NCBI GenBank assembly: GCA_949316235.1
Contig: OX438759.1
Location: 19,902,618 to 19,966,617 of the forward strand
Length of the DNA: 64,000 bases
Reading direction: 5' to 3'
DNA from: Oegoconia quadripuncta
Lineage: Eukaryota; Arthropoda; Insecta; Lepidoptera; Autostichidae
How positions within the stretch are numbered: the first letter of the stretch is position 1; the number at the start of each line of letters is the position of its first letter. The position numbers were made by a program, and so were the translations under genes. The notes under the pieces were generated by a model. It worked only from the letters and a program-made list of their open reading frames with translations. It searched no databases and was not told the origin of the DNA. Below are positions 30,501-61,500 of this stretch, piece after piece.

Positions 30501-33500
30501 TTTTATCCCCTTGGGGGTAGAATTTATCAAAATCCTTTCTTAGCGGATGCCTACGTCATAACATCTACCTGCATGCCAAATTTCAGCCCGATCCGTCCAG
30601 TGGTTTGGGCTGGGCGTTGATAGATCACTATGTCAGTCACCTTTGAGTTATATATATATTTAGATATAATTATCAAATCACAAATTGTAACCCATAAGCT
30701 GTTTAAAAGAGCAACTCTAGAGTTTCTTGCTCGTTCTTCTCTGGGGAGTCAGCTTTGTGAATGAGCAGTAAATTTAAATGTAATATTAATAGTGTCGTCT
30801 TCAAGTGATAATTTTATCCTATGAAATAAAATTTGATTTGATTTGTGGTCTGCTCTGGTTTGTTAATTTTAGATATCATATATGAAAGCTCACAATTGGA
30901 TTTTGGATATAATAATGTATAATTATTATTCAAATATAACGTACTGACAAAGATTTAAAAAAGGTATGGTGAGATGGTTTGGAGATGTGGAGTGGATGAA
31001 TGAAAGAAAGAGATATACGAAGCGAATGTTGATGGTAAAGTTGGTAGGAGAAGACCACGACGAATATACCACGATCAAATCGGGGACATCTTAAAGGAAA
31101 GCCAAGTCAAGAGTACCCTTAAACCGATGAGCATGTATTAACAATCCATGAGAATGTATGACTCAAAATAGCTGTCAGGATCGTAGCAAGTGGAAGTCTA
31201 CAGTCTCGGCCTACCCCCATGGGAAACAGATGTGACTTTATGTAGTACTTACAACTATGTTTTCCAAATAAAGATTTAATTCTTCAGACTCAAATGTTAT
31301 TACTCCTACGCCAGATTTCGGCGGCTCGTTTCGTGCAACACTAGCGAGCATACAACATACCTGCGACACGCTGCCCAGGCGGTAGCAGGGCAGCTCGTCG
31401 CTGGGGCGGTAGGGGTCGAAGGCCACGACGGAGACCCAGGAGCGGTGGCCCTGCCCGCGTACAACATACCTGCGACACGCTGCCCAGGCGGTAGCAGGGC
31501 AGCTCGTCGCTGGGGCGGTAGGGGTCGAAGGCCACGACGGAGACCCAGGAGCGGTGGCCCTGCCCGCGTACAACATACCTGCGACACGCTGCCCAGGCGG
31601 TAGCAGGGCAGCTCGTCGCTGGGGCGGTAGGGGTCGAAGGCCACGACGGAGACCCAGGAGCGGTGGCCCTGCCCGCGCGCCACCACTCGCCGCTCGCCCA
31701 GCGACCACACCGTCACCAGGTCGTCCTCGCCGCCCACCACCACGTACCTGGTTGGGGCAATGGTCATGGTAGGTACAAAACCAGTATGGCATGCAGTTTA
31801 TTGCATAAAAGAAAATATGAAGTTTGTTAAACTTATAATCCATCAAAGAGGTTCCAGTTGTAATCTTCTGACTCTATCATGGAAGCAAAACAAATTAGCT
31901 CAAATTCGCTATCTTGCCATTTGCCATCAGGGAGTTCCAGTCCCTACACACCGGGTCCATCATCAGATCAGCGCAATGGTAACTTACATAAATATTCAAA
32001 ATTTCAGCTCAATCAAGCAAGTGGTTGATAAAAAGGTTTGCAAATATTGAACCGGACAACTTAGTTACATACGAACATTGCAAGCTAAAGCTTTTAAAAA
32101 TTGTCTGTCATTTCACAAGGGGCGGTCCGAGTGACCAGTGCTGGTGACAAACCTGCCGTCGGGTGCCCAGCAGACGCAGAGGAAGCCGCCGAAGTAGGAC
32201 CTGGCGCGGCCCACCAGCTCCATGGTGTCGTAGTGGAACACGCGTAGGAAGCCGTCCTGCGACGCCACGGCCAGGTTGGTGCCGCACGGGGAGAACGAGA
32301 ACTCGTTGATACAGCTGCCCTCCGCGCCTATCACCCACCTGACCAGCACCAACAAACATTCAGGGATCACCTGGTGTATATCCTTGGACATACACACAGC
32401 GCGAATTTGTTCCACAATATTTTTTTTTTTTATGCACAACGGATTGGTACTTGACCTCAATCACACCTGATGTTAAGTGAAGATGAGGTCGAAGGTGGAA
32501 GCGTATTGACCCGGAAACCCCAACACATTTGGGGGACTGGCTATCTTATCTCTGACAAAGTGGATGGCCAGGCGGACATTTAAAATGCCCGACCACCAAC
32601 TAAACCGAGTACTAAACATATACCCCAATGAGGATCGAACCCGCGACCTCCGAATCGTAATCAGATTAATGTAATTAAGAGTATTCGTAGTTTGTGGACA
32701 GAAGGTTCAAACTGGAAAGAGCCATGTTTAAGTTCTTTTTTTATGCACAATGGGTGTTGACAGTGGCACTTGACCTCAATCACTCAATGAGGCCGAAGGT
32801 GCAAGCATACTGACCTGGAAACCGATTAAAGCCGGCAGATGGGAGTGCAGCAAACGGGATGTCAGTAGAAGGCTACCGCGAGTATAAGTGCCAATAATAA
32901 GAGTGAGTGTGCTAAGGTTGGATTGTGTTTTCATATTTATTTAGTGAAGCCTCAAATAATAATAAATGTCTTAGCACAAACACACAGCGCCATCTAGGTC
33001 CACAGTAAGCATCTAGGCTCGTGTTATTGATACTAGATGGTTGATAAACTACACAAATACATTTTTTTTTTGTAAATAAATACATGTATAAATGAAAAAC
33101 ATCCATAACTCGGGAACACATGTCTGTATTCATCATACAAACATAGCCCCTAGCGGGATTCGAACCCGCGACCATTTGGTGTAGTAGCAGAGTTTCTAAC
33201 CACTACACCAAACAAGTCGTCACATAATCTCTCTTCTTATAATTGTAACGCCACAATTTTTAAAACAATACTTCAGCTGACCTGTAGAGTGGGTTGCGAG
33301 TGGACTTGGTGCGACAGGTGTGGATGGAGTAGCCATCGCCCTGCTTGAAGAGCTGGTAGTGCGGCGTGGCACCAGCCGGCAGCTCCTCGTTGTAGACGTA
33401 GAGCTGCCCTGATGCATGCGCTGCCACAAACAGGTTGGATGACCCTGGCACCCACTTGATGCACGTTACTCGCGTCTTGTCTATCAGTCTCTGGAAATAT

Positions 33501-36500
33501 AATTTTTTATTTTTCTTTTCATGCATTCAGTCAACGTTTACTGTAGTTGGGAGACTGTGTTATTTTTTAGAAATGGTATGAAGTTATAAAATCAATTAGC
33601 CTTATACTGTACCAATATCATTGTATTGTATTGTATGTGTGTGTGGCTGTTGCAGGTCATCGGAGACCTGTATCACTGCGACCGTTGCCGATCTATTGTG
33701 ATCGCCATTAACCTACAGTTCGTTGCTCAGGTTTGCCTCTTTGAGGAATTGGATAATTTTCCTGGCACCGATGGTTTTTATCTCATCCGGGTGTAATAAG
33801 TGGCTGCCCAGGTGGATATTACGTTTACGCATTAGCGGGCCACATTCACACAGCAGATGTGCAGGTGTTTCCTCAGCGAGGAGGCAAAGTCTGCACATTC
33901 CTGTTTCTCGGAGCCCTATGTTGAGCATGTGTTTGCTCAGACAGCAGTGTCCCGTTAGTGCCCTTGTGAGAATGCGTAAATTGTTCCTACTGAGTGGCAG
34001 CGCTTCGCCGGCCGCCTTCTTGTTGAAGGCTTTGATTAGTGATTTGGAGTGTGTTAAACCTGGCGTGTTCGTCCAGAGTTTAAGAGCTGCTTGCGTGCAC
34101 CGGTTCCTTAGGGTAAAGCGAATTAGGCTTTTTGAGATACCGCAGAAAGGCTCAGGGCCGTACTGGGATCCGCTAGCCCCCAATTTCGCTAGTACCAATA
34201 TCATACGTAACTATAAATTGTAAATTTAAGATGTGGCGGAAATTAAATGGATTTAGCAAAAGTTCTTTGGAACATAATGTCCATTATGGGTACAAGCTGC
34301 ATACCGGTTTGGGTATTATTATATGTTTCTCAATAATTAACTATACTATTATTATGGTAACAGTTGTAGTTGTACTTAATTTTTGTTTTTATTTTTATTA
34401 CTGTGAATTAAGGCTACATTTCGCAAGAATAACACCAAGCAGAATGATTGTTGCGGTCTAATATTTTTGTATGTGTTTCTGTAATATGTAAAGAAAACGC
34501 TTTATCTATCTATCTATTAATTTAGCATTGTCATTTTCCATTGGAATTCTAAATATTCCTTTCTACTATAGAAACATGATTACAAAAGCTTCTTCATTGA
34601 CTTCAATTCGTATATCGATTTCATTTCGTTAGGTACATTATTAATATAAATATTTCGAACACTTACCACCCATCATCTATTCCCAAACTAAGCAAGGCTT
34701 GTACTTTGGATACTCGATAACGGATAAACATATATAAATATTTATATAAACATCCATGACTCGAGAATAAATGTTTGTATTCATCACACAAACATTTACC
34801 CCTCACGGGATTCGAATCCGCATCCGTTGGTTTCGTAGACAGGGTGACTATCCACTGCACCAATCGGTCGTCAACCACATACACATATTATAAATGTGCA
34901 GACGTATAAGCAGCATATAACTAGTAGAGGATGCATAGATAGATAAAAAGTTTGATAGCTGAGTGCACAAATGCCCATTAAAGGGGCAAGCCAATGGGGA
35001 TTTGTAGAATAAGTCTTTATCCAGCTTATTCATAAAAAGAGTGTCGTTTGACATTACTTTCTTAAAGTGTTCTTTTCCGTTTAGGTGCTGCATAGCACTT
35101 ATGTATGACTCACCTCTTCATTGTATAATTTACTTAATTCCTTCTTAATTGGGTCTATCAGTTGTATTTGTCCAGTAGAAAATCCTATAACTAGTGATAC
35201 ACTGTCGGCCGTCATGGTGACAGCATTGAAGTCATGGCTCGTCGGATTCGTGCCTTTGTACACCTTCTTATCCACAGGCTTCGTGAGGTCCGCCGCCTGA
35301 GGACAATTACAGATCTGCTGAGGATCATTCAGGAAAAAATAAGAGATTTGTTCCTGACAATTCGGAAAAAAAACGAGGTGAAAAATAGTTTACAAGAAAG
35401 CATGAGCTCTTAGTATGTAATGTATCGCCTTTTTGTTCAATAAAGCTTTTACAAACAAATACTCTTTGTTTTACAGAACAGTACAGACTGATTCTCATGT
35501 CATGAATATTGATTAGAAAAGTACAGATAAATTAATATTTTTGCAGAAAGAAAAACAGACAAAAGAGAGATAAGAGCCCCATTTTTACCTTTTCAAGAAC
35601 AATTCCCTATAATTTATAGGAACAACATTCTGGTGGGAATTAATAAAATTAATTCCTTTCATGTGAATAGCTTGGCCAATTTTGACTAGCGTGTGAGGCT
35701 AGCATGACCACAGTCTGTTACCAAGTTCTTATAATGACACAAGACAATAATAATATTTTGGATATTTCTTCTACGCCCAAACTAGACAACGCCTGTACTA
35801 TGGCTGCTAGATAAAAGATAAACATACATAAACATCCATGACTTGGGAATAAATGTTCATATTCATCATTCAAGCATTTACCCCTTGTGGGATTCAAACC
35901 CGCAATCATTGGTTTCAAAGGCAGGGTCACCTAAATTCATTAAAGAGAAGCCAAGTGCCTCTCTTCTAGCCTTTAGCACAAATAAGATAGCACGCTCTTT
36001 CCGTGGTGAATTGTATAGGGATTAGAAACTTGGCTAGCCCCATTGGAGTATTGTTTCCTACTCAATCTAGAATAATCATTTTTTTATTTAATTACATAAT
36101 CAAAAGCCTTCATTTAACACAATTTCACCAAAACAAAGCACTCGACTAAACCAATATTGAATTATAAATCATTGTGTTTAGTGTAATTAATTTCGGTTAA
36201 AGGAAAAAATATAAGGAATATGTATTAACATATTATATAAGTATATTATGTAGGTACACTAAAAAAGTACCCTTAAAAAATATATGATAGAAATAAATAC
36301 ACCTGTGATAGTAACAAACATGTTGAACATGATTCAAATATGCTATCCCACAGTTTTCGTAGATCTGCCTCGGTACAATCCATTAAGAATTTTGTTTATG
36401 TTATTCTTTAGAGCATTCAAGTGATTAGAATGATACGTGGGATCAATACACTGAGATATATCTTTAGGAAAGAAGTGATAAAGTCGAGGTGCCATTACAG

Positions 36501-38125
36501 TGAAATGCCTGCATCCAACATTGGAATGTTTAAAGGGCGATTTATTGTCAGTTGTCAGTGGGAAATCCCAGCCAATTTCCATATGATTCTCTGAGAAATT
36601 AAGACCTTACAAATTTTAAAAAGTTGTTTGGTGGGAAATGTACAATATCATAAAGTCAAGCCTGTTTCCCGTAGGGGTAGGCAGAGACCACAGACTTCCA
36701 CTTGCTACGATCCGGACACACCTTATACAATATCAGTCTGCAATAATGCACCTATATGATTATTGATTACATTTGCACAAGTTGTATCAGTACAAGTTAC
36801 TGTATGAGGCTTATCAATCTGATACAGAACCATTGATAGGCTGACATAACAACTACAAAACCCATGTAAAACCATCCCACAATTTTTCCTTTTCTTTAAC
36901 AATTTCATAAACAATGTTAGTTATTTTTAATTCTGTATGTATAAACAAAAATTTATTTAATAAGTCATAAAAACTGTAAGGAATAAATTTTAGAACCAAC
37001 TGTACTTTCGTATTCATAATTCCGTATATTATTCTATTTGCCATATTTACTTGATAGTCATTTTTGCCTGCAAGCAACCATTGTTGTATTACTGATGGAA
37101 AACTAAACTGTGAAGAAAATGAGCTGTTACAATAAAAATGGTGAGTGTGGTTACGGCAGCAAAAAAGTTAGGAAATGCTACTCCAACCTTTCTTCCTTCC
37201 TCACTACACTATAATCCTATCTAGTTATTCATGATGTTTGAAATTTTTCAATCTTTCCATTGGACCACATTTACTACACTCCAACTCAACATCGCATTGT
37301 TTCTAGCTTACATATACTATTACTTTTAAATCATAGAGTCATATGAAACAAAGCTGCTATCCACATCTATTTATTTGTATGCTTAATTCCTCTAAACTAT
37401 TGAACAGATTTTGATACAGTTGAGAATTTTGATACACTATAAGAACTTAACTTTTATTTAACAAGAATACTCCACACACATTGCTTTTCTCCTATATTAT
37501 ACTTCATCCTTTCCCACAGATGAATATCCCGTTCAGAACTGATGGTAGGTTCAGACATACTGACACACTAGGAGCATTATTTACTTAACGATAAATTAAA
37601 GTATTCATCAAACGGGGAGTGATATGGTGTGGTGGACGTCATCAGGGACGCCGCTGCCACTCCGCGCCGCCCTCAATGTGGATTCGCCAATACACTTCCA
37701 CAGAACACAGCGTCGCTGCGCCGTTCGACGCCCTCTACTTGATTAAGGGCTTGAAGTTTTATATTATAACAATGGAAGCTGTGCCTGCTTACCTTCTTGA
37801 TCCCTCTGTAGACGTACACATAGAGCTCTTTGCCATGATTAAAGCAGATGCGGTCGTCGGCCGGCGGCGAGTCGGAGGGGGCAGGTGCAGTGGCTGTCAC
37901 AGTGGCGGGCACGGTAGGCACTGCGGTAAGGGCGGGCACTGCAGCCACGGCGGTCGGCAGCGACACCAGCGACACGCGCACATGCGAAGAACCCGCGCCG
38001 CTCGTGTAGCCCACTCGATTCGGCCGCGAGTATTCTGACAGCGTCATCAGCCTGTAAGTGCCCTCGCGTGTCGCGAACTGCGTCTTCACGTCGTCCTTCC
38101 CGCCGGAGTCCGATTGCACGGCCAT
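27194..38125 (-). CDS. WDR20: WD repeat-containing protein 20 homologue, complete (7 exons, 559 aa)
   Basis: WDR20 is a beta-propeller activator of the USP12/USP46-UAF1 deubiquitinases. The minus-strand exons are 37793-38125, 35114-35296, 33282-33490, 32153-32338, 31579-31747, 29375-29618 and 27194-27549. They total 1680 nt, one frame with consistent phases and GT-AG sites. Family-specific text runs throughout: KTQFATREGTYRL, SEYSRPNRV, SVSLVIGFSTGQIQLIDPIK, RVTCIKWVPGSSNLFVAAHA, CRTKSTRNPL, FSPCGTNLAVASQDGFLRVF, YFGGFLCVCWAPDG, YVVVGGEDDLVTVWS, WVSVVAFDPY, DTQLCLWDLT and ICKKIAHERLTALLF-like text. Exon 1 carries an Ala/Pro/Thr/Val-rich insert of about 30 residues. The last two exons are GC-rich and low-complexity (Pro/Gly/Ala). 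Exon 5 and its donor are tandemly triplicated; only the first donor keeps the frame. The assignment is firm. Confidence 0.95.
27205..27255. repeat. GGGGGGCC-type G-run array at the WDR20 C-terminus
   Basis: Five G7-8CC-like blocks on the + strand encode, on the minus strand, the Pro/Gly tail of WDR20. Several G runs of six or more make this a strong G-quadruplex candidate. Confidence 0.85.
27881..28219 (+). mobile_element. SINE family A, full-length
   Basis: The head is CCTCCGTGGGTCAATGTG, with box B-like AAGTTCGATCCCTGG, then the GGTGGAAGGGCATTTTAAAT block, and it ends GTGCATAAAAAAAAAA. It lies in the WDR20 intron between exons 6 and 7. Confidence 0.9.
28220..29374. other. WDR20 intron 6 remainder, no other element recognised
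   Basis: This is AT-rich sequence with the hairpin at 28844-28882 and a poly-T run near 28945. No other recognisable content was found. Confidence 0.5.
28844..28882. repeat. Perfect hairpin: CCATGGACGTAACA arms
   Basis: CCATGGACGTAACA and its exact inverse complement are separated by 9 bases in a WDR20 intron. No flanking element was recognised. Confidence 0.85.
29375..29618 (-). CDS. WDR20: WDR20 exon 6
   Basis: It starts DTQLCLWDLTADVLRPAPRA and continues with a Pro/Ala/Gly-rich linker ending in GGTSLTG. The acceptor is preceded by an almost pure C tract. The donor is GTGCGT. Phase 0 in and phase 1 out match its neighbours. Confidence 0.9.
29622..29650 (-). promoter_or_regulatory. C-homopolymer polypyrimidine tract at the WDR20 exon 6 acceptor
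   Basis: On the minus strand, two runs of about 10-12 C separated by one T lead directly into GTGCAG, the 3' splice site. The tract is almost pure C rather than the usual U-rich mix. Confidence 0.8.
29735..30406 (+). mobile_element. Jockey-like LINE ORF2 fragment with frameshifts
   Basis: The text DLVDTAVFLGLTLDAKLQCG, FVLQKRAIRAIYKLRPRVSL, RDKFKEINILTMACQYIYEN and FHNKIPGDIQNLPLNKFKAL is the C-terminal half of a jockey-like ORF2. At least three frame changes make it a pseudogene. Its 3' end resumes at 30720 after a nested repeat. Confidence 0.82.
30425..30665 (+). mobile_element. ACTAGCTTTCCxCCCGCGACTTCGTCCGCG-type moth repeat
   Basis: The text GACTAGCTTTCCTCCCGCGA, then CTTCGTCCGCGTGG and CAAATTTCAGCCCGATCCGT, is a common lepidopteran retroelement 3' tail. 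It interrupts the jockey-like copy. Related copies are at 45108-45245 (+) and 42600-42830 (-). Confidence 0.75.
30720..30848 (+). mobile_element. Jockey-like LINE 3' end with TTTGA tail
   Basis: CTCTGGGGAGTCAGCTTTGT and the closing AAATTTGATTTGATTTG tandem tail match the end of the copy at 4200-4620. It is the continuation of the fragment at 29735. Confidence 0.75.
30960..31245 (+). mobile_element. LINE C-terminal fragment (GGRRPRRIYHDQ...)
   Basis: The text KVGGRRPRRIYHDQIGDILK is followed, after decay, by a segment ending in SAYPHGKQ. This is a common insect LINE C-terminus. The terminal ~60 bases recur as scraps at 20189, 36655 and 57590. Confidence 0.7.
31351..31677. repeat. Three perfect 109-bp tandem units spanning WDR20 exon 5 and its splice donor
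   Basis: Units begin at 31351, 31460 and 31569 and are identical by eye. Each unit contains 99 bases of the 3' end of exon 5 and the first 10 bases of the intron, including GTATGT. 109 is not a multiple of three, so inclusion of an extra unit shifts the frame. Confidence 0.97.
31579..31747 (-). CDS. WDR20: WDR20 exon 5 (first donor of a triplicated unit)
   Basis: It encodes YVVVGGEDDLVTVWSLGERR and WVSVVAFDPYRPSDELPCYR, ending LGSVSQ before GTATGT. Use of this first donor joins SQ directly to DTQLCLWDL of exon 6, as in the family. The later donors at 31470 and 31361 would shift the frame. Confidence 0.93.
32153..32338 (-). CDS. WDR20: WDR20 exon 4
   Basis: It encodes WVIGAEGSCINEFSFSPCGT, NLAVASQDGFLRVFHYDTME and YFGGFLCVCWAPDGR. 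The donor GTTTGT is non-consensus at +3, but the phase match to exon 5 is exact. Confidence 0.92.
32420..32660 (-). mobile_element. SINE family A, head-truncated
   Basis: A poly-T run, then TATGCACAACGGATTGG, GTCGAAGGTGGAAGCG and GACCACCAACTAAACCGAG blocks, and a box B-like GAGGATCGAACCCG. It breaks off in the head at GAATCGTAA. It lies in the WDR20 intron between exons 3 and 4. Confidence 0.88.
32735..32823 (-). mobile_element. SINE family A, 3' end only
   Basis: Poly-T and TATGCACAATGGGTG, then GAGGCCGAAGGTGCAAGC. Only the tail-proximal ~90 bases remain, 75 bases from the preceding copy. Confidence 0.8.
32962..33222 (-). mobile_element. SINE family B', near full-length
   Basis: On the minus strand it has a head with TTGGTGTAGTGGTTAGAAAC, a box B-like GGTCGCGGGTTCGAATCCCG, then GAGTTATGGATG and a body containing AGATGGCGCTGTGTG. 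Related segments lie at 45252-45420 (+) and 56840-56996 (-). Confidence 0.85.
33282..33490 (-). CDS. WDR20: WDR20 exon 3
   Basis: It encodes RLIDKTRVTCIKWVPGSSNL, FVAAHASGQLYVYNEELPAG and YSIHTCRTKSTRNPLY, with a GTCAGC donor. Confidence 0.93.
33590..34204 (-). mobile_element. RNase H-type LINE, ORF2 C-terminus
   Basis: An open 163-codon frame reads RFTLRNRCTQAALKLWTNTP, then LTRALTGHCCLSKHMLNIGL and CRLCLLAEETPAHLLCECGP. This is the zinc-knuckle C-terminus of an RNase H-bearing LINE, the same broad type as the one split by copia. A short 3' region ends near a TTGTA-rich stretch at 33612. It lies in the WDR20 intron between exons 2 and 3. Confidence 0.82.
34501..34519. repeat. ATCT tetranucleotide microsatellite
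   Basis: About four to five ATCT units follow an AAACGCTTT context. Confidence 0.8.
34645..34875 (-). mobile_element. SINE family B, full-length
   Basis: On the minus strand the head is GACGACCGATTGGTGCAGTG with a box B-like GGATTCGAATCCCG. The body contains GAGTCATGGATG and TTATCGAGTATCCAAAG. It lies in the WDR20 intron between exons 2 and 3. Confidence 0.87.
35114..35296 (-). CDS. WDR20: WDR20 exon 2
   Basis: It encodes AADLTKPVDKKVYKGTNPTS and HDFNAVTMTADSVSLVIGFS, ending KKELSKLYNEE. The acceptor CCTCAG and donor GTGAGT are good, and the phase is 0/0. Confidence 0.93.
35755..35935 (-). mobile_element. SINE family B, head-truncated
   Basis: It has the same body and box B region as the other B copies, cut within the head at AGGTGACCCTGCC. 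It lies in WDR20 intron 1. Confidence 0.75.
35936..37792. other. WDR20 intron 1, otherwise unremarkable
   Basis: About 1.85 kb of AT-rich intron. The only recognised content is a LINE scrap at 36655-36716 (minus) with GGGGTAGGCAGAGACC. ORFs at 36343-37077 look random. Confidence 0.55.
37793..38125 (-). CDS. WDR20: WDR20 exon 1 with start codon
   Basis: The ATG at 38125 opens MAVQSDSGGKDDVKTQFATR, and SEYSRPNRVGYTSGAGSSHV follows. It ends CFNHGKELYVYVYRGIKK before GTAAGC. The start fits the short acidic N-terminus of the family. An Ala/Val/Pro/Thr-rich insert occupies about residues 58-88. Confidence 0.92.
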
Positions 38126-38520
38126 GTTACCATATCGTCCTCCTGTTTCTCATGGAGACGGCGGAGAAGCCCCGATGTGCCAAGAGCGCGCCGAGCAGCG
38201 GGCCGTCTTCCCTCCGCTCATGTGAGACTCCCGTGGCTCGCGGACGTTTCGAGATTTACACAACACATTTGTGTGAAGAACGACACACGTGGAGCTGTAT
38301 GTTTTCAATTAAAAATCGGGAATTGGATGCTCTTGTGTATGCAAAGTCAGGTGTCAGTCAGACGACGACATGACGGCTCAAGCGCTTTTTTAAAAAGTTT
38401 GTTCCTTTGGACAGGCAAAAGGGACTAAGGCCAGACAGCCCGCATATTACCTACCTCTTTCAAGAAAGATTCCGTATTGTTATGGTCATTCGTTAGCGAA
38501 TTCATTTGATTTCAAAGATC
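38126..38520. other. WDR20 5' flank
   Basis: This stretch upstream of the WDR20 ATG presumably holds its 5'-UTR and promoter. It is GC-rich near the gene. No clear core promoter element could be fixed. Confidence 0.4.
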
Positions 38521-38612
38521 TATTTCATCATTATTAGCCCGTAAACATCCCACTACAGGAATATAGGCCTTCCCTCGTATATGAGGGACTATAGGCCGTA
38601 GTCCACCTCACA
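38520..38612 (+). mobile_element. RTE-like LINE 3' tail scrap
   Basis: The text CATTATTAGCCCGTAAACAT, CCCACTACAGGAATATAGGC and TATAGGCCGTAGTCCACC follows the pattern of the CCACTGCTGGxxAxAGGCCT tails common in moths. Confidence 0.6.
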
Positions 38613-38870
38613 AAGATCTATTAAAAATACTTAATTCCACTAAAAATATTTTGAATTCAAGACTTTTATATCCCCAAACTCTACAAGCCTTAACTTTACA
38701 AACCCTTTTGGTCAAAATGTATGGCATAGCCATTTCATTTTGTGTGTATATCCTATCATGAATATAACATTTCCACCTTCCAAGACTTCGGGAAATACCC
38801 GAGAGGTTTGAAGAATGAGTGAGCCAGTGGCAAAATCTAAAGTATTTTATGTAGGTACATCAAATCAAAA

Positions 38871-38986
38871 GTTTTTTTTAATGCGCAACAGGTTGGTAAT
38901 TCACTTCAATCACACCTGATGTTAAATGAAGACGAGGTCGAAGGTGGAAGCACACTGACCCGGAAACCCCAACACATTTGGGATAA
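38871..38986 (-). mobile_element. SINE family A, 3' end only
   Basis: Poly-T, then AATGCGCAACAGGTTGG, GACGAGGTCGAAGGTGG and CCCCAACACATTTGGG. It is truncated after about 115 bases. Confidence 0.85.
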
Positions 38987-39952
38987 CCTATAAAAGCTAG
39001 ACAAATGAGTTAGAGTGTTTGATAAGTCTGCTCTAGTATTATTTAATGCCGAAGCTATAAGGGTTTGAAAATACGAATCAATTCGAGAAAAGGTAGTTGG
39101 TAGTGCTCCGCTTTTGTTTTGGCTCGTCCTGATAGGCGCACTTCCATGCCCCCAGATTTCGTCAGTTATCTATCAATGCAATGATTATCACTTATCAGTG
39201 AAGACGTTTATGGTTATCAATGATAAAGGCTAGGTAAATGCAGCACTCAAATTGAATAAACCCTGGCTTTATACGATTTGACACCGCACCACATGACAGG
39301 AATGGCGAAACAATGGCCCTAAAATATATTATAGGTATATATAAAAATATAGACTGTTCTAATGCATTTTTTTGGTTATAAATGAAGAGTTTTGATTATG
39401 TATATAGTAGGTACCTATATAAGTTTATTTTTTTTCCCAATAACCACGAAGTCAAAGTTATTATTTTTTTTTTAGAAAAAATGGCACTAATCTTGGAATA
39501 TGATAATCGTTACGCTAAATATGTCTTCAAAACGGCTTACTAAACATGGCTTCCTCTCTTTTCGTTTAGTGCTTTAAAAACCGCACTCAAATGAACATCG
39601 CATTAATTCCTGAGATACATCTGGTTATAGAATGAATGCACATCAAACACATAACACTCGTTTTTCGTCGGTGGCAAAAAAACCGGTTTCCAGCTCGTAC
39701 CAACCGTTTGGACGTTAGACGCGTGACAGAACCATAAACACAAATAGGCTTCTTTCTTTATAACACCCTCCATTTGTGTTATCACATTTTTCATTGATAA
39801 AACCTGTTAACTTCTGAGAAAAGTGCATTAGTTGGTCACCGGAAATCTTTATCCATATCTTTAAATGGTAAAAAGCTATAGAAGTTATAATCCATAATTA
39901 CGTAGGTAATAATAATATAAACAATTGAAGGACACACAGATACAGACATGTA
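38987..39952. other. Intergenic DNA, nothing recognised
   Basis: AT-rich, with poly-T runs near 39430 and 39465. No conserved coding text or element ends were found. Confidence 0.5.
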
Positions 39953-40222
39953 TACAGGACGTCCCAAAGTTATGGGACATGAAGGGGAAGTACCTTAAAT
40001 ATTGTAGATAGTGAATTTTGCTCAAAGAAGACTTTATGTTATTTTTAAAAGTTAGTAATTCTGCATTCATAGATTTTCTAAAAATTACTTGCTTCGGCTG
40101 GGAATCGAACCGACTTAAATGTGAAAAAAAAAACACCCTACTTTTATGATGCCAATCGAAAGAATAGCTAAAAAATAATAACTCTGCCTAAGTAACATAG
40201 TATTTTAAAAGAAAGGAACAAC
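39953..40222. repeat. Left 270-bp TIR
   Basis: It pairs with 41807-42076. The outermost bases are TACAGGACGTCCC and the innermost are GGAACAAC. Confidence 0.92.
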
Positions 40223-40666
40223 ATAAAATGATTGAGTCAAATTTCAAGAAAGTTATTTATTGCCGACGACGTTCGAAAAGTAGCGATATTATCATTCCAA
40301 AGATAGCATTGATTATTCGTAAATAAGTACCCACTTCATAAAATAGGTACTAACATAGTTTTCCTTATTATAAGTGCACGTGTAGATGAAATGATAAAAC
40401 TTGTATTTCAATACGTCCTCTGTAAGCTAGACAGAAGGCAAATTAAAAACAAAAATAAATAATTTATAATTTGAAAATGGAACAGTTTATGACAGCGTTT
40501 GTTTGAATGCATACTTTTTAAGATATTTTAAAAAGAAGTGATATTTTTAAATGTTGTTCTTAAATTTGAAAATGGAACAGTATGTGCGAGCGTTTGTTTT
40601 TCGGATATTGATCTGTTTAGTCTCAATTCACTTACACAAGTGTTATTGTGTTAATTTATTGCGAAC

Positions 40667-41728
40667 ATGGCATATCAAGTAAGTTTTGATCTAATGGAAG
40701 CATATTTTTTGAACGATAAAGATATCTCTAGAAGTTTGCGGTGGTATGGCGTAAAATATCCTGATAGACAAATACCGTCTCGTAAAGTTTTGAAAAGGCT
40801 TGTGAACAATTTGAAAACTCTGGGACGTTTCGATAAACGCCCAAGAGAACCACAGCAAGAAAACCATACGATCAACGACGAAGAACTTGGTATTTTAATT
40901 TACTTTTCGGCTTTTCCGAAAGCATCGGTGAGAGAAGGAGAACATGAAATTGGAGTTTCAAAAAGTAAAATACACCGTGTATTAAAAAAACACGGTTTTA
41001 AGAGTTATGTTGAAGGACGATTGGTTCAAAAATTACTTCCGGGCGATACAGAAAGGAGAAAAAATTTCTGTCTTGATATCCAGGCACGATTGCTCGAAGA
41101 TCCAAATTTTTTGGATAATATTATTTGGACAGACGAATCTAACTTTAGCAATAACGGTATGTATAACCGCAACAATAATCGTATTTGGTCTAAAGAAAAT
41201 CCCCTACGAGTGACTGAAACTAATAACCAAGTGCGTTTTTCACTCAACTGTTGGTGCGGACTTTTAAAAAACCGGGTTTTCTTAATCCATTTTTACCAAG
41301 GAACCTTGAACACAGAAAAGTATTTAGGAATACTTCAAATTTTAAGGGATAAGATAAGAAACCATTCCGCGGCGGAGCAAGAAAACTTAATTTTCCAACA
41401 AGATGGAGCTCCGGCTCATAATAGTCGGAGAGCAGCAGATTTTCTAAATGAATGTTTTCCTACATGGATTGGTACAAATGGACCGATTAGATGGCCGGCC
41501 AGATCCCCGGACCTCACACCATTAGATTTCTTCTTTTGGGGATACGTGAAAGATATGCTATACAAAAAGCGATACGAGAACGTAGGCGAGTTGCAAACAG
41601 AATTGTGCCATATCACATCGAGTGTTCACCATAAAATGATTAGAAAATCAACAGGCAGCGGGCTCATTAAAAGATTGGCGATTTGCGTAAGACAAGAGGG
41701 ATCACATTTTGAGCATTTAATTAATTAA
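40667..41728 (+). CDS. DDE transposase of the long-TIR element (353 aa)
   Basis: The N-terminal ~110 residues contain two helix-turn-helix-like parts for TIR binding (SRSLRWYGVKYPDRQIPSRK, then GVSKSKIHRVLKKHGFKSY). The catalytic part has IIWTDESNF with Asp156, FQQDGAPAHNS with Asp246, and SPDLTPLDFFFWGY with Asp287 (or Asp282). The spacing from the second to the third Asp is 40 residues if Asp287 is catalytic. This is longer than mariner DD34D. The protein resembles insect transposases often labelled Tc3-like with a DUF4817-type N-terminus. There are no stops or frameshifts. The ORF lies centrally between the TIRs. Confidence 0.92.
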   Translation: MAYQVSFDLMEAYFLNDKDISRSLRWYGVKYPDRQIPSRKVLKRLVNNLKTLGRFDKRPREPQQENHTINDEELGILIYFSAFPKASVREGEHEIGVSKSKIHRVLKKHGFKSYVEGRLVQKLLPGDTERRKNFCLDIQARLLEDPNFLDNIIWTDESNFSNNGMYNRNNNRIWSKENPLRVTETNNQVRFSLNCWCGLLKNRVFLIHFYQGTLNTEKYLGILQILRDKIRNHSAAEQENLIFQQDGAPAHNSRRAADFLNECFPTWIGTNGPIRWPARSPDLTPLDFFFWGYVKDMLYKKRYENVGELQTELCHITSSVHHKMIRKSTGSGLIKRLAICVRQEGSHFEHLIN

Positions 41729-41806
41729 TTTACAAAAAAATACCTACTTAATTGACTACGGCAGTTTCATGTATGTTTTTTATTTGATTAAAATGATTAA
41801 TTTCAC

Positions 41807-42076
41807 GTTGTTCCTTTCTTTTAAAATACTATGTTACTTAGGCAGAGTTATTATTTTTTAGCTATTCTTTCGATTGGCATCATAAAAGTAGGGTGTTTTT
41901 TTTTTCACATTTGAGTCGGTTCGATTCCCAGCCGAAGCAAATAATTTTTAGAAAATCTATGAATGCAGAATTACTAACTTTTAAAAATAACATAAAGTCT
42001 TCTTTGAGCAAAATTCACTATCTACGATATTTAAGGTACTTCCCCTTCATGTCCCATAACTTTGGGACGCCCTGTA
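41807..42076. repeat. Right 270-bp TIR
   Basis: This is the inverse complement of 39953-40222, ending GGGACGCCCTGTA before the flanking TA. Confidence 0.92.
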
Positions 42077-42599
42077 TATCAGTTCGAGTCTTGAGTCAAT
42101 TGGTCGTGTAAGTAGGTATTTAGCAAAATAATTAAAACCTAAAATAGTTTTTGTCGGGTGACCATTATTAGTACAGTGCTATTTAGGACAAAGACAAAAA
42201 ATATCCATATCATAATAACGCATTGTTTTGTGTGTCGGTTGTTATATATAACACTAGATGAACAGTACCTACCACCGAAAATATCCGAAAAATCAATTCG
42301 ACAAAATACTGTTAGCTCTAAAAATTCTAAATGACATTCGTTCCAATTTATTTTCAAAATAAAAAGAAAGATAATAATGTATTTATGTACCACAAGTAGA
42401 CACACACAGGACATTTTACAAATCAAGCTTACATATGTCTGTTTACTAAAAAAAAAACTTGTTTTCTTAATATAGCGTGGTTATTGTTATTATAATATTT
42501 GAAATTGTTATTACAATTTCTACCAATGAAATATTTTAGTCGTCCGAAACACTGTTCCGGATATAATTTACGGCTATGAACAGAGTTTTTGAAATCTAA

Positions 42600-42830: not shown

Positions 42831-43039
42831 ATTCAATAAACTATATATTATTGTTGGGGAAGAAATTGAATTTATTAAATGAACAGGTGCAGTCGACCGG
42901 CACATCTCGTAGGTATTAGTGTTTGAACCTTCAGTAAAATATTTGATAGGTACAGTCGGCAACACAATTAAGGTAGCAGGCCTTTATTTATAAATATTAT
43001 GTAGGAGAAAGTCTAAAGGGAAATTAAGTTAAAATATAA

Positions 43040-52355: not shown

Positions 52356-52999
52356 GTCTCCAACAGAATCTGAACTTTAAGGCAACAATGGTGGGTTGGT
52401 TCTCAGTAATCTGTGATGATTTGTGAGAACAAGGATTGAGAGAGCTTTCTGCGGAAGGGTCATCTTTAGGAAATTTTAATTTTGGGGCAGTTGGCGATAG
52501 ATTCTTTTTGCTTAAGGGAAGTTGTAGGTGCATAGGATATATCTCCATCATTGTTCCTCACAGATAAAAAATAAATATTCCTCATTACTAAGTGAATGGT
52601 CTACACAGGCCTTAGCAAGGAAGGTGCTCTACAGTCTACAAATTTATTGTAGTTACAAAAACCTGATCATTATAAGATGATCTCTGACAGATGGTTTCAA
52701 AGGACACCATTATTGGCATGAACACAATCTTTAAGTTCGCGTCAAGCGAGGATGTCGAACTTTCAGAGTAATAAAATTGTTGCTATTGCAACTTGAACTA
52801 ACAAACTGGTAGCAACTTAGTTATCAGACTTGTCAGTCAGGGGTCATATTACAGTTCCTCAAGTGAGATGCTGTGGAGCCAATTGGTTATAAATTCGCGA
52901 CGTTAGCAAATAACGATCTATTTTTATAATGTGATGGATAACTGACAATGTTGTCGATTCGGTTGGTTACACGCTTAAACTAAATTTAGTTTTCCCACC

Positions 53000-53330
53000 A
53001 CCTCCGTGGCTCAATGTAAACAACATAGGGTTTACGATTCGGAGGTCGCGGGTTCGATCTCCAGCGGGGTTCATGGTTGGTTGGTTATTACTCGGTTTGG
53101 TTGGTGGTAGGGCATTTTAAATGTCCGCCTGGCTAGCTACCACTATCTTATCTAAGTCTGCCGTTAAACAACAATGTTAATAGCATTGTTGTGTTCCGGT
53201 TATCAGGGATAAGATAGCCAGTCTCTCAAATAAGATGGGGTGCCTGGGTCAGTACGCTTCCACTTTCGGCCTCATCTTTACTTAATATCAGCTGTAATTG
53301 AGGTCAAGTGCTAACTCATTGTGCATAAAC
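53000..53330 (+). mobile_element. SINE family A, full-length
   Basis: It has the same head (CCTCCGTGGCTCAATGTAAA), box B-like GGGTTCGATCTCCAG and terminal GTGCATAAAC. A small extra GGTTGGTTATTA step lies after the head. Confidence 0.9.
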
Positions 53331-53479
53331 AAAGGAGGTTAGTCTATCGTTTTTGTCTACGAATATACAAAAAGGACTACATGAAATTTCAATCCTGTCA
53401 CTTCGTTCAGAAATCGTGACCTCAAAAGATTTTAATCGTTTTATTTGTCATGCATGTCATATGAATGCTGTCTAAAAAT

Positions 53480-53600
53480 CAAAATCAAAAATATTTTATT
53501 CAATGTAGGATACAAAAATATCACTTATTGAAAGTCAACATGTTATTTTTTTTTAAACTACATGCTTTTTTTTTGGAAAACTTTTGAGGACGCTGTTTAC
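53480..53600 (-). mobile_element. Jockey-like LINE 3' tail
   Basis: On the minus strand it ends CATTGAATAAAATATTTTTG followed by ATTTTGATTTTT, a typical tandem-tailed LINE end. Confidence 0.6.
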
Positions 53601-55660
53601 CCGACTGCTCTAAGAAGGATGGCTATAGAGTGCATGTAGATTTCTATGTTACCCCTTGTAGCCTAAATGGCTTGACCAATATTGAAATGCAAGATGTCGT
53701 TCGATTCGTCTTAATCCCCAGATTGTTATCGTATACATTTTAGGGTAAAAATCCAACATGAAGCCCGCAAAATACGCTGTCGGGTTTTTCGGATTTTAAA
53801 TACATAATTATTTGTAAGATCTAAAGTGATTGGACTAGAGTTCTGTCGTCCTTTTTGTGTACTATTTGACGAAAAAGGATAGACTAGCCTGTTATAAGTT
53901 GGTGCCAACTGACTCAACACCAGTGCAATACTCATGTATTTAACACATCGTGCATTTTCTTTGATCCCTTCAGACCTGAGATCATAAAAACGGGAGATAT
54001 GTCAAGTGTCGCGTCATTAATGTGTATATAGTTTTCTCACAAATGCGCTTCATTTTTGTACACATGATTGGCTTGTGTGAGTGCTAGCCTCGTCGCACAA
54101 TACACACGACATGCTTTAAACGCGGCGACATTAGAGCCCATACTAATTTACAATACATTATCTCCCTTGTTTTTATAATTTGAGATTGGGAACTTAATTT
54201 GTACAATAAAATTAAATATTACAAATTAATAATTTGTAAGTGTACTACCGCAATGTACTGCCAAGGAATCGGAGTCACGTACGGGCTTCAGTTATTTGTA
54301 TTCATTATCTAAAAAATTACATTAAATACATATATGGTATGTGTTACAAAAGCCTCTTTTTGGTTTGTCCGAACAAGGTTTGTGTCATCACATCAATAAC
54401 AGATGACAAACCAAATGGTGTAGTCACGAAACTGAATCTATTTCAGGTACAAAAGAAAAACAAGGAAAAAGCCTTATTAAATACAAACTCGATATTGCAC
54501 TATGCTCTATCGTTTCGAAGGTTTCAAACACAGACCTAGTTGCTCTGTGGTTTCAAGCAACAAATGTTTGCAGAAGTGGCACGCACGTGACTCAGATTCT
54601 TAATTCTATATTGAGAATCGTCTGTATGTATTTATTATTATTATTAAATTCTTATTGCATACAAAAATAAAATACAAAGATAAAATTTAAATATAAACTA
54701 GAACAAATGTAAAAAATTGGGGCCGCGAGGCAAGGTACCCAAAACGCTGGCGGCGTTTCCTCGTTGTATGCAGATACTTAAGCGTTGGGCGAGGACACAA
54801 CCAGCTCTCGGGTCACCGGTGACGTCGACTAAGCGCTTTGAAATATCAAAGTAAAATTTACCTACCTAAAGTTTCGACTCCGAAAGCTAGGAAAATGTAT
54901 TCGGAACCGATGTCTCTATATTTGTTAATTTTGATGTTTTCCGCCGTCTCGGCGGCTGCAGCTGGCCTCCTTGAGGTTCCTTGGAGGTGAAGTCCAAGTG
55001 GCATCCCACACTAAGGCCCGACCCATACTCCATATTGAGAATTGAATATTGCTCAATAGTGATATTTAAAACCAGAAACTTTAATGAATGAATTTCAATG
55101 ACTTTACATTCTATGTACTTATAGTATGTCGGACATTTCACAACCAATTCCGGTAGTATTTATATGTGGCATTATGCTATCTAGAAGTCATCTAAGCATT
55201 TTTGTTTTTAAATTTTTTGTTTGTCTCTTTGAATGTCTGCCCAGAATACTCTAAAATTAAGGGGCTATTGGTCATCAGAGCTCCATCCTTGTCTATCGCT
55301 TACGTGTTTGTATAAGTCCGAGCTTCTCGCGCACGCAATAATTCAGGTATTTTCTTTTTATTCCGAAACTAATATGTATTTTGAAATGTAAAACATCTAA
55401 ATCATATTTGGTTTATCAAAGTTTCGTGAATGTACCTAAAGTATTTATGTAATGCCAAATGTATTTGCACTTTCAGACGTAACTTTGGATTTTTATATTT
55501 TATCGAGAAAATTTCAAGGATTCGTGTTTCTGAAACATATGATCACAAGCATTTCCCGTTTTTTATTATGTAGTCAATACAAATTGAGTGCTTAACGCAT
55601 TGTTGATAAAACTGGGCTGGTCCTAAACCAAGTGAGGTCTAATCGACCCTAAACAGGTGT
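53601..55660. other. Intergenic DNA with a possible retroelement tail near 54640-54860
   Basis: An ATT trinucleotide run at 54634-54650 borders a GC-rich block (GGGGCCGCGAGGCAAGGTAC) that looks like an antisense retroelement 3' end. Nothing else was recognised, and no conserved exon text was seen. Confidence 0.4.
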
Positions 55661-55667
55661 TGATAAC

Positions 55668-55767
55668 TACTGGTGTCGATTCGTATGTATACCAACTAAA
55701 CTAAAGAGCCAGTACTACTTTAAAACTGGTTTTAGTTTAGTTGGTGTACATCCGAATCGACACCATT
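55668..55767. mobile_element. Short palindromic MITE
   Basis: TGGTGTCGATTCGTATGTAT, ACCAACTAAACTAAA and the inverse TTTAGTTTAGTTGGTGTACA, TCCGAATCGACACCA form arms of about 35 bases around a 30-base loop. Confidence 0.8.
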
Positions 55768-56544
55768 GTTACAGAGATAGACTATATCCTGCGTTTTGAT
55801 TCGTAGGTCGATAAACTAAGCCGCGCGCCGCGGCGTTACCTAATTAATGTTATATAAAGTATGTTGTGGCACAGGTCCTATGAACTATATTGTGGCGAAT
55901 GCAGGAAACTAGAGGAGGATGATGGTGATGATGACGATCGAGTATGTGTTTTTTCCTCCCGTGTAAATTTTTACTAGTAGTTAGAATTTAAAGTGTAATT
56001 CAATGAGTCATCATTACGTCCTAATGTTGGAAAGGAAGAAACGAAATTATTACAATTATACTGTAGTTTATCAGAAGTTGTTTATCAACAATTATGTTAA
56101 CACTCCCTTTTATTTTTTCAGTTTATAATCGAAGGTAAGCAAGAAATGAAAGGTATTTCTTGTATATTATTTGGAATAGTATAATTGGAGACTTAACGGT
56201 ATTGGCTCGGTTGTAAAGATGGTTAAACGTCATAATAATGCAAATGAGGGGGGGAGCTCCGCACACCTGTCAGAAATGACGCAATTGCAGCCGCAGTAGT
56301 AATTTTTATTTTAAAGCAATATAACCTTGTGTTACCAAGCTAATAATAACATCATTCTTGGTATTCCCTGAGTGCCAAGGCTTTTCCACCCTGTATAATC
56401 TCCTACAGTGTGCGAAGCTCCCTCGTGTTCCTTAAAATAATTATTTTTATGTTAGTATAATTCTAAACTGTGATTAAAATAATGCCTTTCTATGATTAAA
56501 TCGTAGAAAATTTTATAATCGTTTTATTTAATAGCTTTAAGGAG
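55768..56544. other. Intergenic DNA, nothing recognised
   Basis: It contains a GATGATGGTGATGATGACGA simple patch near 55917. No genes or elements were recognised. Confidence 0.5.
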
Positions 56545-56830
56545 GGCTCGGCACAAAGTCACGACCTTTATCCCAAATGGGGTGGTCAGAGCTATCCCAA
56601 ACGTAAGCGTTTAGGTGTTCCAAACAAGTTCACCCACGGTTCACCTTACGATATACACAGATATGCACATGAGAGCCCACCACCGCTCAAACGTGCAATG
56701 GATGTTTTTTGTGGCAAGTCCCTTATTCGCCTTTTACGAGACCCTCGGGAAGGGACGAGTTGATTCTATTCTTTATATGTGCCGAAACACACGGCATGGC
56801 ATAAAGACATTTAGTTGCACAGGCCCTAAT
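56545..56830 (-). mobile_element. CCCGTGGG...GGCGACTAAGGGA-type repeat, antisense copy
   Basis: On the + strand CACGACCTTTATCCCAAATG and AGTCCCTTATTCGCCTTTTA show the inverse of the family at 43040 and 62450. Confidence 0.68.
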
Positions 56831-56839
56831 TTATAGTAA

Positions 56840-56996
56840 TAAATATCTTTGCACATACACACAGCGCCATCTAGTTCCACACTTAGCAACTAGGCTTGTA
56901 TTATGGATACCAGATGGTTGATAAACTACACAAATATACATTTTGTAATTAAATACATATATAAATGAAAAACGCATCCATAACGCGGGAACGCAT
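56840..56996 (-). mobile_element. SINE family B', body part
   Basis: It matches the B' body (ACACAGCGCCATCTAG, CCAGATGGTTGATAAACTAC), ending near AACGCGGGAACGCATG. Confidence 0.78.
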
Positions 56997-57306
56997 GAAG
57001 TGAGATTCCTCGAAATAAAACCTTTTCTTTACAATTACGAAAGTGACGTCATTGTTATTGAAAGCATTCTTCAATCAGGCGCTTCTTTACAAATGGCAGT
57101 TATATTTTAATATAATTAAAGAATTAATATGTAAAATTATTTTGTGTGTGGACATTTCAAATGTATTTGAACCTATTTTTTATTTTAATTCAAATATACC
57201 GACGACACGGCGAGCGTGTATGAACGACTTTATGAGTGTGAATGAAGCGTAACTATAAATTGAAAACATTCATTAAATAAATTATGTCGTCCAACTATTT
57301 TTTTTT

Positions 57307-57430
57307 ATATGAGAGGGCGGCAAACGAGCATGCGGGTCACCTGATGGAAAGCAATCACCGCCGCCCATGGACACCCGCAACACCAAAAGGGTCACAGATG
57401 CGTTGCCGGCCTTTGAGGAAGGTGTAGGCT
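57307..57430 (+). mobile_element. Dispersed moth repeat (GAGAGGGCGGCAAACGAGC family)
   Basis: Inverse of 23150-23285, with near-identical sequence from GAGAGGGCGGCAAACGAGCA to TTGCCGGCCTTTGAGGAAGG. Confidence 0.78.
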
Positions 57431-57836
57431 TAAATACATAGTATTAAAACATGGCTAAGAACGTATTTCCAGGTTTATTAAATATAAAAAAAAATATATA
57501 GTATCACCGAAATACACCAAGAAACTGTGTGAAGCTAAATATCTCATCGAAACCCGTTGTTTATCGTCGGGGGTAAAAGTGAGTGTGTCTGGTAGGATCG
57601 CAGCAAGTGGAAGTCTGGTTGCCTTCGCCTATCCCTGCATGTATGTATGTTTACATACATATTATAAAAGTCACTAGACGTACAAAAACCTTAAGGTGGT
57701 TTGTTTTTGTTCTAAACAAATATCTATTGGGTTCACTTTTTTATTTATTCTGCTTACATTACGGAGGGTTGCTACTACAGAGAAGTAATGTAATTATAGT
57801 ACCGGTGGGTGTAGGGGTAATTCCTGTTTACCCGTG

Positions 57837-58067
57837 TACAGTTCTCGAGGCGTAAGATCAGCTTTGCATTTGTGTGAGTGCACACAGATAGAGATACGGC
57901 TTGTGGCGCAGCGCGTCCCGCGCATTGTTTAAACGCGGCCTGAGGCGCGGCGTGTCCGCTGCGCGTCGCTTCCCTGCCGCGCACATGCCGCACTTCACCT
58001 CTTGTACCGCTAGCAGCTTCACGTCACTCACACAAATGCAAAGCTGAGCTTACGCCTCGAGAACTGT
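57837..58067. mobile_element. MITE with about 42-bp TIRs and a GC-rich core
   Basis: TACAGTTCTCGAGGCGTAAG, ATCAGCTTTGCATTTGTGTG and the inverse arm bound a core rich in GCGCAGCGCGTCCCGCGC-type sequence. There is no ORF with family text. Confidence 0.82.
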
Positions 58068-58469
58068 ACCCACTGCGATATGGTTGGATTCTACAGTGAT
58101 AATGTTTCTACAATAACCCTGCAGTATAATTAAAAAAAAAATACTTGAACAGCCAAAAAGTTAATGTATTGATAAGATGTATTATATATTTATCAATTAC
58201 ATCGATGAAAGCTCAAAGTTACGCAGCGAAATATATGTTTCACTAAGAGAACGAAATAGGAATGAGGCAATCCGTAGAAGAAACGAGTCATCGACATAAT
58301 TCAACGGATTAGTAAAAGTGGCAGTACTCTGCCGACCTCAGACGGCCTGCTGTAATCTCGCACAGGTAATTGAAAATTGTACGAGGATGGTGAAAGGAGA
58401 TGTAAAAAAAGGGCTTCATTTGGTAGTACATAATAATATTTAATTAAACCGAGAATGTGGCGTCGTGTG

Positions 58470-58497
58470 GGGGTCGGGGTCGGGGTCGGGGGGCGGG
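58470..58497. repeat. GGGGTC/GGGTCG run at the DDB1 stop codon
   Basis: Four G runs of four or more occur on the + strand right after the DDB1 stop (minus), giving a C-rich start of the 3'-UTR and a G-quadruplex candidate on the other strand. Confidence 0.8.
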
Positions 58498-58581
58498 CTA
58501 GTGTATACGGGTGAGGTCCTCCACGACCTTGATGAGGTCGTCCACCGTCGCGTCGCGCTTCATGCCGCCGCCGTCGTCGAT
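58498..58581 (-). CDS. DDB1: DDB1 terminal exon
   Basis: It encodes [20 protein letters not shown] and EDLTRIH, then TAG. The acceptor is CCGCAG. Confidence 0.95.
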
Positions 58582-61500
58582 CTGCGGCCAAACACCAACC
58601 ATGTTATTGGGGTCACTTTTACCATGTCATATATTACAGTCACGACCTTTCCGATCCGACCGATCCCATATGGGGTGGTCAAATAACCCAAACGAGATAA
58701 CGCTCAGGTTTGAATGTTAAAACTTTAATGCTGGAAACAATATCCACAGTTTACTTTTCGAAATATACAAAAATGCACACGTGACCCTTTGCATTTTTGT
58801 ATATTGGTGTTTTCACCAATGGTGAACTAGATTTTTAAATGTCTTCTTATAATTTATAGACTGACACATTGTTAGAGACATATTTCCACTGTAGCCCCCT
58901 GGGTCAACCCTATTTTCATAGATTTCCTTGTATCCACACAGATTCTCCTGCATTCCATTTACAGCCCCTTAAATTCCCCTGCAGCCTCACAAAAGCTGTG
59001 TACTTCCCTAGCTAGCTACAGATTCCTCTACATTCCTCACCTGCAGCCCCACAGATTCCCTTGCATCCCTATAGATTGTCCTGCATCTTAACAGGTATCC
59101 CTACAGCCCCCTGGCTTCCCTTTAGCTCACCTGTAGCCCCTGCACAGTCTCGTGTTGCATATCTCGCGACAGGTCGAGGAAGGACTCGACGAGGTCTCCG
59201 TCGATGAAGCCCTCGGCCGGCTCGGTCTTGATGTCCGTGTTGAAGGAGCGCCAGAAGGCGTGCGGGATCTTCCCCACGGACTTGATGGTGTGCGTCAGCC
59301 GCTCCTGCAGCTGGTGGAGGAACTCGAATAGCTCCTGCGATATTTGCACTACTAGACCTGTTCAATGGAAATTGAAAAGATTAGCTAACTAATGGCTTCC
59401 CCCTGTATTTTATATCTCACTTTGGCATTGTATTGTTTTGTACTCCACTCGTAGGACAACCTAGGAGAGGAGGCCTGGAGATTTGTAAAACAGGATTTAA
59501 CAAAACTTTATTACGGGTTCCTCAGTGTATTTTTCCATTCAGATTTTATTGTATTACAAGGGGAGGGGGCGTCGGCGGTATCGTGCCCCACTAGCGAGCC
59601 CGCCCTCATCACGTGGCCATGTGGCCGCTGGGAGGCCACCACCCCACACTCACAGATGGCGCCGGTGACGGAGGCCAGCAGCACGGGCGAGGTGACGGGC
59701 GCGGCCGTGTCCGCGTGCTGCCCCACCATGTGGCCGCTGGGAGGCCACCACCCCACACTCACAGATGGCGCCGGTGACGGAGGCCAGCAGCACGGGCGAG
59801 GTGACGGGCGCGGCCGTGTCCGCGTGCTGCCCCACCATGTGGCCGCTGGGAGGCCACCACCCCACACTCACAGATGGCGCCGGTGACGGAGGCCAGCAGC
59901 ACGGGCGAGGTGACGGGCGCGGCCGTGTCCGCGTGCTGCCCCACCATGTGGCCGCTGGGAGGCCACCACCCCACACTCACAGATGGCGCCGGTGACGGAG
60001 GCCAGCAGCACGGGCGAGGTGACGGGCGCGGCCGTGTCCGCGTGCTGCCCCACCATGTGGCCGCTGGGAGGCCACCACCCCACACTCACAGATGGCGCCG
60101 GTGACGGAGGCCAGCAGCACGGGCGAGGTGACGGGCGCGGCCGTGTCCGCGTGCTGCCCCACCATGTGGCCGCTGGGAGGCCACCACCCCACACTCACAG
60201 ATGGCGCCGGTGACGGAGGCCAGCAGCACGGGCGAGGTGACGGGCGCGGCCGTGTCCGCGTGCTGCCCCACGAGGGAGCCAGCCCTCATCACGTTGACCA
60301 TGTCCCCGATGTGGAACTGGCCCATGTAGCCCATCTGTTGTCTCTCCTCGTCCGTCGTCGCCGCGCTGCAATGTCACATACGATCGTTGTATTACATAGG
60401 CTGTTGTCGACCGATTGGTGTCGTGAGTAGTGTCCTTGTCAGCGAAAACAACGGTTTCGGATTCGAATCCTTCGAAATATTTGTGTCGAATACGAACGTT
60501 TATTCCCGAGTCATGGATGATTATACAGGGCTATAAAAGCTACTTAAAATTAGAATTTCAAGTTTACGATTTGAAGCTGTTTTTTTTGTCAAAATCAACT
60601 CGACGGGTTTACTAGTAACCACTGAAGAGTTGCACCATCCACCTCCTGACTCCATCATCAGATTAGCTCCAAGATACCAAATTATAATATACAAAGTTTC
60701 ATTGGTTGGTGGTAGGGCATTTTAATTGTCCGTCTGGCTAACTACCACCATCTTATCTAAATCTGCCCCCAAACAGCAATGTTAATCGCATTGTTGTGTT
60801 CCGGTTGTCAGACACAGTCCGTCAGCCAGTCCCCCAAATAAGATGGGGCTTCCGGGTCAGTACGCTTCCATCTTCGGCCTTATCTTCACTTAACATCAGA
60901 TGTGATTGAGGTTAAGTGGTAACTTTTTTTGCATAAAATTGTGCATAAAAAAATGTAGGTTAAAATTGACTTCCAAGATTTGTTAGTTACTAGTGCATCT
61001 TATATCTTATAAAAGCGTGTTAAAAAGTAGTAGAAAACATAGAAACTTTCAATATTTCCATGTAAATTTCTTTACATGGAAATATGTACATATTAAAACT
61101 GGGTCTGACAACCGGAACACAACAATGCGATTAACATTGCTGTTACACCCATATTTTTTTTTACTTTGAAATTATGTTAACTAAATAACTTACCTGTCCT
61201 TCTGACATACAAATAAATTAAAACTATTCTCTGCGCCTAGGAAAGTATCGTCATCTAGTATCTCTACCGCCGTCATCCAATTGGGGCTGTAATCTCGAGC
61301 TATTTCTTCGAAACTACCCTCCATCTGTAACAAAATTTACAAATCAACACTTCCTTTTCCACATCCGCAATAAATCAACTTGGAAATTAAGAGAGCATGC
61401 TCACCTGTTTATACTGCAGTAGTGACATAGAACGCATAAGATCGCCTACAAGTATAAAGTCTCCCTTAACTTTGAGATATAATGCTACTATATTATTAAA

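Follow-up and report, generated by a model that had tools for sequence, protein, structure and literature searches.

Perfect 109-bp tandem arrays across exon ends of WDR20 and DDB1, probably produced by assembly at a fixed k-mer length

Why would two unrelated genes carry perfect tandem arrays with exactly the same 109-bp period, both lying across an exon end and its 5' splice site? This question is raised by the window studied here, the whole 64-kb stretch of DNA that was analysed. Our answer is that both arrays are probably assembly artefacts, written by a short-read de Bruijn assembler running at k = 109. The arrays and the exons that they involve are the following.

31351..31677, minus strand: WDR20 array, three identical 109-bp units (31351-31459, 31460-31568 and 31569-31677)
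31579..31747, minus strand: WDR20 exon up to the first donor, which lies in the rightmost unit; in-frame continuation in the exon starting at 29618
59617..60271, minus strand: DDB1 array, six identical 109-bp units, with a register free by 1 base
60199..60365, minus strand: DDB1 exon up to the first donor, which lies in the rightmost unit; in-frame continuation in 59131-59357
59131..59357, minus strand: next DDB1 exon, downstream of the array; in-frame join, with a PDB match

Tandem Repeats Finder places the WDR20 array at 31351-31677 (period 109, 3.0 copies, 100% matches) and the DDB1 array at 59617-60271 (period 109, 6.0 copies, 100% matches). A direct scan of periods 5-1999 recovers them as unbroken matches over 218 and 546 bases, respectively, the next-longest tandem tract in that scan having a period of 7 and spanning 80 bp. 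Both methods thus confirm the perfect 109-bp arrays that the initial annotation had described in the two genes. The unit starts that it gave for WDR20 (31351, 31460 and 31569) were correct, whereas its DDB1 anchors (59651 and those following) proved to be points inside the units and not their starts. Among the arrays listed by Tandem Repeats Finder for the 64-kb window, no other has a unit longer than 30 bp. Not a single base differs from unit to unit, either in WDR20 (three of three identical) or in DDB1 (six of six), and the register, free by one base in DDB1, is unique in WDR20. Each array is made of a whole number of copies with flush ends and without any partial unit; its rightmost unit continues naturally into the exon, and the opposite end abuts a different sequence. 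By sequence comparison the two units look unrelated, their best local alignment being a 17-column patch with a score of 17. Both are very GC-rich, falling in the top 1.9% and 1.4% of the 109-mers of the window, which is itself gap-free (0 N characters).

Both genes are encoded on the minus strand, and the names given to them, WDR20 and DDB1, are borne out by matches of their spliced pieces to PDB chains. Joining 60199-60365 to 59131-59357 produces a 131-aa piece that aligns from end to end with DNA damage-binding protein 1 (E 8.6e-38) and matches the Pfam family CPSF_A. For the spliced WDR20 piece the match is to WD repeat-containing protein 20 (E 1.8e-27) and consists of two stretches, of which the second crosses the junction. 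The stretch of DDB1 coded by the unit is present once in all seven relatives aligned (of 120 hits listed), which include a fragment from Pararge aegeria with 86% identity. As had also been claimed, each unit of both arrays spans the exon end and the 5' splice site: the WDR20 unit consists of 99 exonic and 10 intronic bases, with the donor CAG/GTATGT, and the DDB1 unit of 72-73 exonic and 36-37 intronic bases, with the donor ATCT/GTGAGT. In both genes the first donor is the fitting one and, judging from frame and homology, would be the one used. Since this donor fits the normal DDB1 and WDR20 proteins, the extra copies would sit in the intron. The other donors were tried and rejected: in WDR20, donors 2 and 3 would change the frame and give the wrong protein; in DDB1, the frame is lost with donors 2, 3, 5 and 6 and regained with donor 4, where a stop codon intervenes. 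Adjoining the WDR20 acceptor that lies before 29618, the segment 29625-29647 contains runs of 12 G and 10 G and reads on the gene strand as all C except for one T.

How special, then, are the equal period and the position at the donor? Under two assumed null distributions, the chance that two periods are equal is 0.0036 (uniform between 20 and 300) or 0.0065 (log-uniform). Of all placements in which a 109-bp unit shares at least 30 nt with such an exon, 0.36 span the donor, and the chance that both units do so is about 0.13, so that donor-spanning by both units is not surprising. The initial annotation had considered that agreement in both period and position was unlikely to arise by chance; this holds for the period (0.004-0.007) but not for the position (0.36 per unit). 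Moreover, the intronic share of the unit is 10 bases in WDR20 versus 36-37 in DDB1, and therefore the splice site does not set the unit. Two readings had been left open earlier, an assembly artefact and the copying of a fixed-length segment at exon-intron borders. The second loses its main support, because the unit is out of register with the splice site and donor-spanning is common by chance, and the first is favoured.

A false repeat of length k would show a fixed length at any sequence, no mismatch and only whole copies. In agreement with this, one fixed period, 109, recurs here at unrelated sequences, and perfect whole copies with flush ends make up both arrays. We propose that a 109-base word at a contig edge was written several times and that the genome likely has one copy. 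Each array would correspond to a join between two contigs, and its unit to the k-mer with which the contig on the exon side begins. During gap closing or joining, the flanking word would have been retained unmerged, two extra times in WDR20 and five in DDB1. The true WDR20 and DDB1 genes would accordingly contain a single unit apiece, and the additional copies would be biologically meaningless. Short-read coverage often falls in GC-rich sequence.

An artefact of a comparable kind has been described in the plastid genome of Quercus lobata. In the passages available from that account (PMC5100847), scaffold overlaps were all 127 bp long and an artificial tandem repeat occurred at two places, where contig ends had been concatenated unmerged. 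The oak case resembles ours in its perfect head-to-tail copies and in having a fixed overlap length (127 bp). It differs in that its repeats were caught by low read depth and corrected. The length and copy numbers found here are also distinct (109, with three and six copies), and the oak passages tie 127 bp to overlaps, not to k or to the repeat length.

The value 109 is itself documented as a k-mer size. The chia genome is reported as a Meraculous 2.2.4 assembly at k-mer size 109 (PMC10757625), and in the assembly passages of four other papers 109 was among the values of k profiled before Meraculous: 19, 31, 49, 55, 79 and 109, with assembly at 55 (PMC8034707); 25, 55, 85 and 109, with assembly at 55 (PMC6893191); 19, 31, 49, 79 and 109, with assembly at 49 (PMC10484055); and 19, 31, 49, 75 and 109, with assembly at 55 (PMC10542157). 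As described there, the chia genome and those of the four profiling papers are Dovetail/Meraculous assemblies, k = 109 being profiled by one assembly service and used by it at least once. They are five of nine such papers examined for k; eight of the nine were chosen for containing "109", and the frequency is not a rate. In the other four, corresponding passages give a k of 79, for genome size, in the Meraculous-assembled butterfly Zerene cesonia and of 51 in the Andean bear, and those on a ctenophore and on ragweed do not have 109 as k. By its HTATSF1 protein, the window belongs within Lepidoptera, with no family supported and a best identity of 71-73%; at 73% in this protein, Zerene cesonia is not its source. 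In Meraculous, the k-mers on either side of a gap are described as serving the gap closer as virtual primer pairs (PMC3158087, in part).

Several points weigh against this proposal. Four of the five papers that give 109 among their values of k assembled at 49 or 55. A single failed merge yields two copies, versus three in WDR20 and six in DDB1. The gap-free window, with its intact Copia and terminal inverted repeat (TIR) elements, fits long reads at least as well, and outside the arrays two sequences longer than 109 bp recur exactly, one of 144 bp in direct and one of 118 bp in inverted orientation. Our literature searches found no description of such an artefact in Meraculous, nor any work linking Meraculous, 109 and Lepidoptera. 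Finally, an assembly artefact does not predict the motif TCGTGCNNCACTAGCGAGC that flanks both arrays, listed here with a diverged exon copy that lies beside one of them.

31331..31349, plus strand: motif TCGTGCNNCACTAGCGAGC beside the WDR20 array, at a distance of 1 bp
59581..59599, plus strand: motif TCGTGCNNCACTAGCGAGC beside the DDB1 array, at a distance of 17-18 bp
59584..59614, plus strand: older diverged copy of the DDB1 exon sequence 60264-60294 (28 of 31 bases), in the intron beside the array

The two 19-base copies of the motif, identical at 17 of 19 positions, lie on the same side of both arrays, and no further copy with up to 3 mismatches was found elsewhere in the 64-kb window. Shuffles gave a mean of 0.07 copies, and two copies appeared in none of 100. 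Among 4264 segments, the best match of the WDR20 flank outside itself is the DDB1 flank; reciprocally, with its own sequence and its own exon set aside, the DDB1 flank matches the WDR20 flank best. With 60-bp flanks, the score of this pair, one of 10 pairings examined and of 3 shuffled, was reached by 0 of 5000 shuffles; with 140-bp flanks, it was reached by 2, 1 and 0 of 3000 under three scorings. Among GC-matched pairs of real 60-mers, transposon copies included, 42 of 40000 scored as high. The 11-base core of the motif is weaker: with up to 1 mismatch, two copies occurred in 3 of 100 shuffles, and with up to 2 mismatches there are 10 matches versus 7.4 expected. The likeness between the flanks ends after ~32 bp. 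The score of the remainder was reached by 45-253 of 3000 shuffles, and it ranks 164 among 3196 real segments.

Several candidate sources for the motif did not hold. A transposon was rejected: the window has no further copy even when 3 mismatches are allowed, no exact match to TCGTGCNNCACTAGCGAGC was found in viral contigs, a collection that may omit records near the window, and the likeness is confined to the flanks' first bases. Folding gives no support for a hairpin there (z of -1.28 and +1.61). Derivation of the WDR20 flank from its own exon is likewise unsupported, 4030 of 5000 shuffles reaching the score. A separate search of Rfam matched no family at the gathering threshold. The DDB1 copy of the motif lies within the diverged exon copy, which makes a common origin of the two motifs doubtful. 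Contig ends often fall at repeats, and TCGTGCNNCACTAGCGAGC could in this way still come under an artefact of assembly. The diverged copy, which forms a 69-column alignment with the end of its own exon, is not something that an assembler would invent, so a real duplication likely took place there before.

Such an earlier event would be in keeping with an unlikely alternative, namely that two independent, real tandem duplications, each spanning a donor and later expanded, share their length by chance. Copies past the first donor would be spliced out with the intron, so both duplications would survive. Tandem duplication across exon-intron borders is moreover described in parts of two papers (PMC4974935, PMC3443670), and a real tandem duplication of precisely 109 bp is reported in part of another, for the Vrn-D1 intron of Aegilops (PMC10610194); the phrase "109 bp tandem" also occurs in a paper on an aphid mitochondrial genome. 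Like the splice-border duplications of the intron-gain model (PMC3443670, PMC4974935, in part), the segments found here cross the exon-intron border. Unlike those cases, as far as these papers describe them, they have a fixed length common to unrelated genes, and they show no new intron. The AGGT of the classic form of such duplications is found in the WDR20 unit and is absent from the DDB1 unit, although it is not needed in all the cases described in that part of PMC4974935. We found no literature on splice-border tandem duplication in Lepidoptera. The head-to-tail units of about a hundred bases also recall minisatellites, from which both arrays differ in having neither a diverged unit nor a partial end unit. 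What stands against independent duplications is the equal period, expected in only about 0.4-0.7% of cases under the assumed nulls, together with the presence within a single 64-kb window of two perfect arrays of several copies each, which we judge unusual. If the repeats were real and short-read assembly or gap closing was unable to count their copies, the numbers three and six would be arbitrary. Usual short reads are shorter than 654 bp, and for a perfect array of that length in a short-read assembly the count would indeed be a guess. The equal periods of 109 would be left unaccounted for, and we regard this explanation as improbable.

A more speculative possibility, to which we give very little credence, is that a real process in the insect copies exactly 109 bp beside the shared motif TCGTGCNNCACTAGCGAGC. 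Such a site-directed process would lay 109-bp units by the motif at GC-rich exon ends, and use of the first donor would hide them from selection, a scheme as doubtful as the process itself. The occurrence of the motif on one side of both arrays and at no other place in the window, and the reciprocal likeness of the flanks, speak in its favour. The likeness is nevertheless short and its core weaker, the distance between motif and array differs (1 bp in WDR20 versus 17-18 bp in DDB1), and the DDB1 motif lies in the diverged exon copy. We are aware of no enzyme that works in steps of 109 bp. Least probable of all, the arrays might come from a long-read library whose reads contained false tandem repeats that were then built into the assembly. 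Artifactual tandem repeats of nanopore reads have been reported in a chromosome assembly (PMC10589936), but the part of that account concerned with them gives no single fixed length, and yet both loci share 109. The weights that we attach to the five readings are judgements and were not computed. If long reads show real arrays, fixed-length copying at exon ends would be new. If, as we favour, both arrays are artefacts of assembly at k = 109, assemblies of this type are likely to contain numerous false tandem copies of length k at exon edges rich in GC, and gene annotation, intron-length studies and repeat surveys would be misled. Plotting how often each period occurs among perfect tandem repeats would be a cheap test for such false copies.

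The window contains other repeated elements. A Copia-type element at 5465-9922 has identical 144-bp ends and a 1322-aa open frame. At 39951-42078, a TIR element has 279-bp inverted ends, 97.8% identical, around a 357-aa open frame with weak matches to DDE_3 (below the Pfam cut-off) and to DUF4817. Finally, the 7-mer CACGCTA forms an array of ~13 copies at 11868-11961.
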